DNA from: Methanococcus vannielii SB
GTDB lineage: Archaea; AGJL01; Methanococci; Methanococcales; Methanococcaceae
Direction of reading: 5' to 3'
DNA: 64,000 bases
Assembly (NCBI RefSeq): GCF_000017165.1
Contig: NC_009634.1
Coordinates: forward strand, 1,224,552 to 1,288,551
The notes beneath the pieces were generated by a model. The model did not search any database. It was not told the origin of the DNA and saw nothing but the letters and a program-made list of their open reading frames with translations. The position numbers were made by a program, and so were the translations under genes. This document shows, piece by piece, positions 20,832-41,392 of this stretch. Every line of letters begins with the position of its first letter. The stretch's first letter is position 1.

Positions 20832-22302
<1,471 letters not shown>

Positions 22303-22445: not shown

Positions 22446-22448
22446 TCT

Positions 22449-25416
<2,968 letters not shown>

Positions 25417-39415: not shown

Positions 39416-39760
39416 TTATTTATTTAATTCAAGGATTACTTCTAAAAACTTCTTAATTTTTTCATCGTAAAGTTCGTAATATACAAATTTGCCTTCTTTT
39501 CGATATTTTACAAGCTTTCTATCCCTTAAAAGTCGAAGCTGATGGGAGGTTGCAGAAATGGATATTTTAGAGATTTCGGAAATATCGCAAGAACATAATT
39601 CTCCTTCTTTTAAAGACAATAATATTTTTAAACGAGTTGGATCTCCAAAAGAATTCATAATATTTGAAATTTCTTTAATTTCGTCTTCTTTTGGTAAATT
39701 ATCCCGTACCCTATGGACATTTTCTTCATGAATACAGAATTCTTCACACATTTTACGCAT
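39416..39760 (-). CDS. ArsR/SmtB family metal sensor
   Basis: A 114-residue winged-helix repressor of the ArsR/SmtB family. The metal site ELCSCDISEI in the recognition-helix region is the ELCXCD motif of ArsR/CadC sensors, and the N-terminus is rich in Cys and His (MCEEFCIHEEN), as in CadC, which binds Cd/Pb/Zn through such residues. The DNA-binding core ATSHQLRLLRDRKLVKYRKEG is given by its parts ATSHQLRLL and KLVKYRKEG. GGTG lies 6 bases before ATG 39760. It is first in the operon with the metal ATPase and would repress it until metal binds. Confidence 0.93.
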   Translation of the reverse strand: MRKMCEEFCIHEENVHRVRDNLPKEDEIKEISNIMNSFGDPTRLKILLSLKEGELCSCDISEISKISISATSHQLRLLRDRKLVKYRKEGKFVYYELYDEKIKKFLEVILELNK

Positions 39761-39829
39761 GATTCTCACCAGAAACCTTTATTTTTAATTTAAGAATATT
39801 GACAATGATTTATAAATTATAACCTATAA

Positions 39830-40081: not shown

Positions 40082-40322
40082 AAAAAAATGTCCCTCGACA
40101 TTAACACCGATTTTCATCCTTGGAATATACCATGTCTGTCAGATAACCCTTTATGTCGAGAGCAATGTACGAACTTTTGCTGTATTGTTTTCACAGTAAG
40201 GATCCTACCAACTCTTACAACTCGCCCAAAAATTCGATTAAAAGCGTGTTACTCCAAATTCGAACCCGCTATCATTGCGAGAAGATTCACAAGCTCCATG
40301 TAGGTCGGTTTATTGGAGATAG
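40082..40322 (-). ncRNA. Candidate structured non-coding RNA, unidentified
   Basis: A block of clearly higher GC than the flanking DNA. On the minus strand it starts about 25 bases after a TATA box (AAAGACTATAAATA, 40342-40355) and ends in a seven-T run (40082-40088). It folds into several hairpins. CUCUCGACAU (40162-40153) pairs with AUGUCGAGGG (40101-40092) over 10 bp just before the T run; CUCGC pairs with GCGGG across 40281-40265; further stems span 40250-40219, 40218-40196 and 40196-40180. In the first two, a pair that is G-U on the minus strand would be an A-C mismatch on the plus strand, which favours minus. No RNase P, SRP or tRNA signature was found; ORFs here have stops and foreign codon use. 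Confidence 0.55.
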
Positions 40323-40341
40323 TAATAATTGTACTACTTTA

Positions 40342-40355
40342 TATTTATAGTCTTT
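40342..40355 (-). promoter_or_regulatory. TATA box of candidate RNA; repeated at 40400-40413
   Basis: The 14-base sequence TATTTATAGTCTTT (plus strand) occurs at 40342-40355 and identically at 40400-40413. Read on the minus strand the first copy is a TATA box (CTATAAATA) about 25 bases before the structured RNA. The second copy lies about 30 bases before the likely transcription start of the pyrophosphatase gene and may serve that gene in the other direction. Confidence 0.45.
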
Positions 40356-40462
40356 CCCAATTTACGGTTTTTCAATTTTTTCTTTAAAGTATCACTATGT
40401 ATTTATAGTCTTTATCAGTTTAAATAATACAAAAACCTTAAAATTTGACTTTGGTGATATTC

Positions 40463-41392
40463 ATGAGATATGTTGTAGGGCACAAAAATCCTGATTCTGA
40501 CAGCATCTGTTCAGCAATTGCTCTTGCTTACTTTTTAGATGCATTTCCAGCAAGATTGGGTGAATTAAATCCTGAATCCCAGTTTATTTTAAAAAAATTT
40601 GGAATAATGGAGCCCGAATTAATCAAGTCTGCTGAAGGAAAGGAACTTTACCTTGTAGACCACTCTGAAAAATCCCAAAGCTTAGATAATTTAGAAAACG
40701 GAAAATTACTTGGAATTATCGATCACCACAAAATTGGAATTACAACATCTGAGCCTATAATCTATATTTCTAAGCCAATCGGATCAACTGCAAGTGTTAT
40801 TTCTGAACTATATTTCAGGGGAATAATGGATTATATTGGCGGAAAAAATAAGGAATTAAAAGAAGATATTGCAGGGGTTTTACTTTCGGCAATTCTTTCA
40901 GATACCTTACTTTTCAAGTCCCCAACAGCAACCCCTCTTGATAGGGAACTTGCAGAAAAACTTGCAAAAATTGCAAACATTTCAGATATAAAAGCGTACG
41001 GAATGGAAATGCTAACTGCAAAGTCAACAATTGGTAAACTGGGCCCTTTAGAAATTTTAAATATTGATTATAAGGATTTTGAAATGAATGGTAAGAAAAT
41101 TGGAATTGGGCAAGCTGAAATGATTGATATTAAAGAAATTGCAAGTAAAAAAGATGCAATCCAAAACTTAATTGATGAAAAGGTTAGTTTGGAAAACTAC
41201 GACATGATTTTATTCCTTGCAACAGATATAATGAGGGAAGGAAGTGAAGTTTTAGTTGCCGGAAATAAAGAAGCATTTAAAGAAATATTTTCTGTAAACT
41301 TGAATGGAAAAAGCATATTTATTGATGGAATGATGTCTAGGAAAAAACAAGTTGTTCCAAACCTTCAAAAATACTATGACGGCCATCAATAA
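40463..41392 (+). CDS. ppaC: Manganese-dependent inorganic pyrophosphatase
   Basis: A 309-residue family II (DHH) inorganic pyrophosphatase, which pulls biosynthetic reactions by splitting pyrophosphate. The metal motifs are VGHKNPDSDSICSAIA at the N-terminus, LVDHSE and IIDHHKIG (the DHH motif), and the C-terminal DHHA2 domain ends with SRKKQVVPNL, which includes the substrate-binding SRKKQ. ATG 40463 is chosen because GGTG lies 6 bases upstream; earlier TTG codons would put that site inside the gene. It appears to be transcribed alone. Confidence 0.96.
   Translation: MRYVVGHKNPDSDSICSAIALAYFLDAFPARLGELNPESQFILKKFGIMEPELIKSAEGKELYLVDHSEKSQSLDNLENGKLLGIIDHHKIGITTSEPIIYISKPIGSTASVISELYFRGIMDYIGGKNKELKEDIAGVLLSAILSDTLLFKSPTATPLDRELAEKLAKIANISDIKAYGMEMLTAKSTIGKLGPLEILNIDYKDFEMNGKKIGIGQAEMIDIKEIASKKDAIQNLIDEKVSLENYDMILFLATDIMREGSEVLVAGNKEAFKEIFSVNLNGKSIFIDGMMSRKKQVVPNLQKYYDGHQ

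Follow-up and report, generated by a model that had tools for sequence, protein, structure and literature searches.

What does the GC-rich block in an AT-rich intergenic gap of Methanococcus vannielii SB encode? In the window (the whole 64,000-nucleotide stretch of DNA analysed), this gap is bordered on one side by the upstream end (39769) of an ArsR-type regulator gene on the minus strand (39419-39769) and on the other by a DHH/DHHA2 phosphoesterase gene on the plus strand (ATG near 40463), by resemblance probably a manganese-type pyrophosphatase. The compositional contrast from which the original prediction started is real, with a GC content of 0.409 at 40089-40320, while the flanks have 0.176 and 0.218 (binomial P ~1e-16). 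The block had been proposed to be an undescribed structured RNA. A minus-strand RNA gene is indeed what we find, but the kind of RNA is not undescribed: tandem H/ACA pseudouridine guides are already known (PMC4652768, PMC2584109), and this one is missed by annotation. The block is very probably a tandem three-hairpin H/ACA guide RNA gene of the Methanococcales, related to HgcG/Pab40 and Afu4.

Two overlapping ATG-to-stop ORFs of 71 and 65 codons on the plus strand of the block could suggest a remnant protein gene or a small coding frame instead. Neither has a Pfam match, however, both frames are interrupted in relatives by stops or indel shifts, and the substitutions among relatives preserve base pairs, not codons. 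With no Pfam match and broken frames, a coding gene was ruled out, and we give any explanation of this type almost no probability; the degraded gene that had been named beforehand as the finding that would speak against an RNA is not what these ORFs represent. Nor does the block look like an element of insertion-sequence origin.

The minus-strand TATA box and the seven-T end that had been pointed out can both be read in the sequence. The putative promoter, a purine-rich BRE plus TATA box (GGGAAAGACTATAAATA, approximately 40358-40342, minus strand), has a TATA-like box as its counterpart at the equivalent upstream spot in most relatives. At the other end, a T7 run (TTTTTTT, 40088-40082, minus strand), a probable terminator, lies directly past the last ACA box, and the 3' end of H/ACA RNAs falls just beyond this box (review PMC7991803). 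The motif AAAGACTATAAATA is present twice on the minus strand, at 40342-40358 and, 55 bp away, at 40398-40411. In three close relatives (L056-L058) the promoter motif occurs once and the spacer before the phosphoesterase gene is shorter; compared with them, the promoter stretch looks duplicated in the window.

At curated cut-offs, Rfam finds only rRNA in the whole window. No RNase P, SRP, tRNA or tmRNA was matched in the block by Rfam or ARAGORN, in line with the earlier exclusion of the first three. At a loose threshold, the block's sole match below E 5 is HgcG (RF00064), which is aligned over its full length with a score of 19.8 bits (E 0.0022), against a gathering cut-off of 77 bits. The hint that the block might be one of the Hgc RNAs was therefore well aimed, HgcG/Pab40 being the only family matched, albeit below cut-off; with such a score we do not claim formal membership in RF00064. 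The same family matches 28/36 genomes of the order at E <= 0.001, the best at 63.5 bits and all below 77 (a search at 'phylum' scope covered the identical 36 genomes). As DNA, the block is conserved in 28 of the 36, and models of its three hairpins, designated M1, M2 and M3, match 34/36, 34/36 and 35/36 genomes respectively. A pattern scan for hairpin III across all species returned Methanococcales along with apparent chance matches, and nothing from Thermococcales.

The case for structure is one of sequence comparison, not thermodynamic folding. Minus-strand folding energy is no better than that of dinucleotide shuffles (-53.0 versus -54.4 +/- 4.6, z +0.30), and the plus strand gives z -0.87; single-sequence folding was dropped as proof of structure, its energy not being significant against shuffles. 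Since MAFFT alignments misplace the lower stems of M2 and M3, pairing was counted by swapping strands, not column by column: the 5' strand of each relative was paired both with the 3' strand from that relative and with the 3' strands of others. Own pairing was 0.87 versus 0.77 swapped for M1, and 0.93 versus 0.76 for both M2 and M3, values equalled in 0/2000 permutations in each case (kinship uncorrected). Lower stems such as CUCGACAU/AUGUCGAG, CCCCCUGA/UCAGGGGG and CCCCAGG/CCUGGGG share one position. The covariation in relatives that had been suggested as a check is thus present in the lower stems. Of the five or more hairpins originally described, the claim that the RNA is structured is upheld by comparison; the number becomes three modules, and the folding energy equals that of shuffles.

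A lower stem, an internal guide pocket and an upper stem are found in each of the three hairpins, all on the minus strand. M1 (40320-40247) has the lower stem CUCCAA/UUGGAG, a 5' guide AAACCGA (40311-40305), a 3' guide UCGA (40263-40260), K-turn GA/GA dinucleotides at 40296-40295 and 40273-40272, and an ACA box at 40249-40247. In M2 (40239-40166), the lower stem is CGAAUUUUU/AAAAGUUCG, the guides are GGGCG (5', 40227-40223) and CAGC (3', 40182-40179), the K-turn GA/GA falls at 40214-40213 and 40192-40191, and the ACA box at 40168-40166. M3 (40162-40089) begins with the 10-bp lower stem noticed originally (40162-40153/40101-40092), which is exact and includes one U-G pair, and carries the guides AGGGUUA (5', 40150-40144) and GUUA (3', 40105-40102), a K-turn GA...GGAUGA with a conserved 3-nt bulge, and an ACA box at 40091-40089. 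The box is ACA in all three hairpins here, and an ANA box is found per hairpin in 26-29 aligned relatives. GA is conserved among aligned relatives on both upper-stem arms of each hairpin, and the G-A pairs these would form mark a K-turn motif. Productive archaeal H/ACA folds have a 10-bp upper stem including G-A pairs, a 5-6 nt 3' guide and a 9-bp lower stem (PMC4652768), with the ANA box 14-16 nt 3' of the pocket closing pair (PMC4652768, PMC7991803; 14-15 nt in the former). M1 is a close fit to these rules, with mismatches in its GA stem, M2 fits save for its closing position, where A faces A, and M3 fits with its upper-stem bulge of 3 nt, which is also in the Rfam consensus.

The window includes an rRNA operon (16S 20832-22298, 23S 22448-25416), and the 917 uridines of these rRNAs were ranked as targets, the conserved fold defining the pocket. 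Each hairpin has its first-ranked site (1/917) in 23S rRNA, on the plus strand: U2568 for M1 (25015, E. coli 2504), U2618 for M2 (25065, E. coli 2554) and U1990 for M3 (24437, E. coli 1915, in helix 69), all three being predicted targets. Shuffled guides were equally good in 1/1000, 3/1000 and 4/1000 cases for M1, M2 and M3, respectively. In loose scans 16S sites had come first for M1 and M2; they were rejected, as they needed an opened upper stem, and dropped out of the ranking once the conserved fold fixed the pocket. The target duplex of M1 leaves a gap of 2 or 3 nt. The pocket register of M1 was set when its target was already apparent; its rank is therefore not fully blind, and independent support for it comes from covariation between guide and target.

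Such covariation is what the 5' guide of M1 displays across 25 genomes. Most Methanococcaceae combine UCGGUUU in 23S rRNA with AAACCGA in the guide, most Methanocaldococcaceae combine UCGGUUC with GAACCGA, and two genomes (G003 and G009) combine UCGGCU with AGCCGA. Watson-Crick pairs between guide and 23S rRNA number 164/175 in these genomes versus 154 expected, a value reached in 0/5000 shuffles (kinship uncorrected). The M2 site (GGGGCUG[U]UCGCCC) is invariant in all 23S sequences seen and the M3 site (GUAAC[U]AUAACCC) is identical in every 23S sequence covering it; these two therefore have no guide/target covariation to offer. The M3 site is known from elsewhere, as Pab40 and Afu4 are reported to modify it in vitro (P. 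abyssi 2016 = E. coli 1915; PMC2584109). A guide for L2015 of M. jannaschii was also proposed earlier (PMC4652768). In the 23S rRNA of G004, the M3 target uridine is number 2021, which agrees with L2015 given starts six bases apart.

Could the block nevertheless be a new, unrelated structured RNA or a regulatory sRNA resembling H/ACA RNAs by chance? The Rfam score under the gathering cut-off and the ordinary fold energy would be compatible with this, but chance would have to provide three modules, each with a lower stem, a K-turn motif, a well-spaced ANA box and a top-ranked rRNA target, as well as an M3 target that is the proven target of the Pyrococcus relative and an M1 guide that co-varies with rRNA. 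We consider such a coincidence very improbable.

HgcG/Pab40/Pf7 (RF00064) of Pyrococcus and Thermococcus has three H/ACA hairpins per RNA, as here, in a sequence from which the block has diverged beyond the Rfam cut-off. Hairpin III of Pab40 agrees with M3 in its pocket (GGGUUA / GUGUUA), in the GAUGA arm of its K-turn and in its target in helix 69 (U1915, P. abyssi 2016), which was assigned to M3 by pairing. Afu4 of Archaeoglobus fulgidus likewise has three hairpins, of which Af4.3 guides L1970 and is related to Pa40.3 (PMC4652768); the reported targets of Af4.1 and Af4.2b are 16S S1167 and L2601, respectively, whereas no hairpin here is best on 16S rRNA. In Haloferax, HP2 of an H/ACA RNA is a relative of Pf7 hairpin III with the pseudouridines of helix 69 as its predicted targets (PMC2584109), but that RNA differs in having two hairpins and a long spacer, with HP1 assigned to E. 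coli 2586.

Hairpin I seems to have been re-aimed relative to Pab40, judging from numbering and pairing. The guide of Pab40.1 is directed to L2588, placed at E. coli 2496, and M1 to 2504, eight bases further on. The pseudouridines known in this region of P. abyssi (2585, 2588 and 2603) correspond to E. coli 2493, 2496 and 2511, each of them a uridine in these genomes, and M1 pairing does not fit the L2588-equivalent site and does fit 2504. An identification of the M1 site with P. abyssi L2588 was withdrawn, as M. jannaschii 23S numbering and the three Pyrococcus sites put L2588 at about 2496. Bacteria modify U2504 by a protein enzyme alone (RluC).

These differences also favour the view that the structure is of H/ACA type with one or two hairpins aimed elsewhere, M2 perhaps at 23S U1054 (E. 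coli 959), M1 perhaps at a different site. Pyrococcus hairpin I is assigned to L2588 and hairpin II to L1932 (in P. abyssi), unlike the sites predicted here, M2 fitting 2554, and the runner-up for M2 is U1054 at -20.9 versus -21.7 for U2618, 0.8 kcal/mol apart. On the other hand, the U2618 duplex is not weakened by a run of G-U pairs, the sequence of that site is the same in all genomes, and changes at the M1 site are matched by changes in the M1 guide. Misassignment of this sort is unlikely on balance, though it deserves appreciably more weight than a chance resemblance; we retain 2504, 2554 and 1915 as the predicted targets.

The three hairpins do not always travel together. In Methanococcaceae M1, M2 and M3 are within one gene; in Methanocaldococcaceae M1-M2 form one gene, adjoining the same phosphoesterase gene (L016, L020 and L223 checked), and M3 has a gene of its own at another place. 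The M1, M2 and M3 guides of Methanocaldococcus are those found here. Compared with the open-licence literature, two points may be new, the re-aiming of hairpin I and this occurrence of hairpin III as a separate gene in Methanocaldococcus (an earlier description of the RNA itself in Methanococcus may exist). One genome (G022) has an additional M1-M3 gene without M2, and another (G033) has the M1-M3 form only. Taken jointly, we moderately favour a scenario in which hairpin I of the Methanococcales was re-aimed from about 2496 to U2504, guide and rRNA coevolved, and the hairpins behaved as modules that are fused, split or lost, the split being that of Methanocaldococcus and the loss that of M2 from the M1-M3 gene in G022 and G033. 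Two further sets of hairpins were observed. Three Methanocaldococcaceae loci (L059, L060 and L225) have M3-like stems and K-turn with another pocket (GGCCCAC / AGGAU), probably paralogous H/ACA guides with a different target, and a second, diverged M1-like hairpin lies apart from the main gene in another genome (L030, G023:C2:874039-874118, 45.9 bits).

By this account, the minus strand would be transcribed into an RNA of approximately 235 nt that carries a tandem array of three H/ACA guide hairpins. Following the mechanism established for RNAs of this type, L7Ae would bind the K-turn of each hairpin, and Cbf5, Nop10 and Gar1 would assemble on its lower stem and its ACA box. Within each pocket, the two guide strands would base-pair with the 23S rRNA stretches flanking a single uridine, which Cbf5 would convert to pseudouridine: at 2504 in the peptidyl-transferase ring for M1, at 2554 in the A-loop hairpin for M2, and at 1915 in helix 69, an intersubunit bridge, for M3 (E. 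coli numbering). Cbf5, Nop10 and L7Ae are present in the genome above curated cut-offs, and Gar1 is a weak match (26.0 bits versus a Pfam cut-off of 29.3). A Gar1-like ORF is found in each of about four tandem copies of a 5,405-bp unit outside the window (G000:C1 ~1059500-1078500, L226). No difference was seen among three units that were compared (100% identity), and the repeat could be a real amplification or an assembly effect.

For the Methanococcales as a whole, no genome of the order reaches the HgcG cut-off in Rfam, so that these guides stay unannotated by that route; a 77-bit threshold shuts out the entire order, and the family could be widened. The three hairpins name candidate pseudouridine sites that can be tested in the ribosomes of methanogens amenable to genetics, and M1 adds one case in which a guide and its rRNA target visibly change together.
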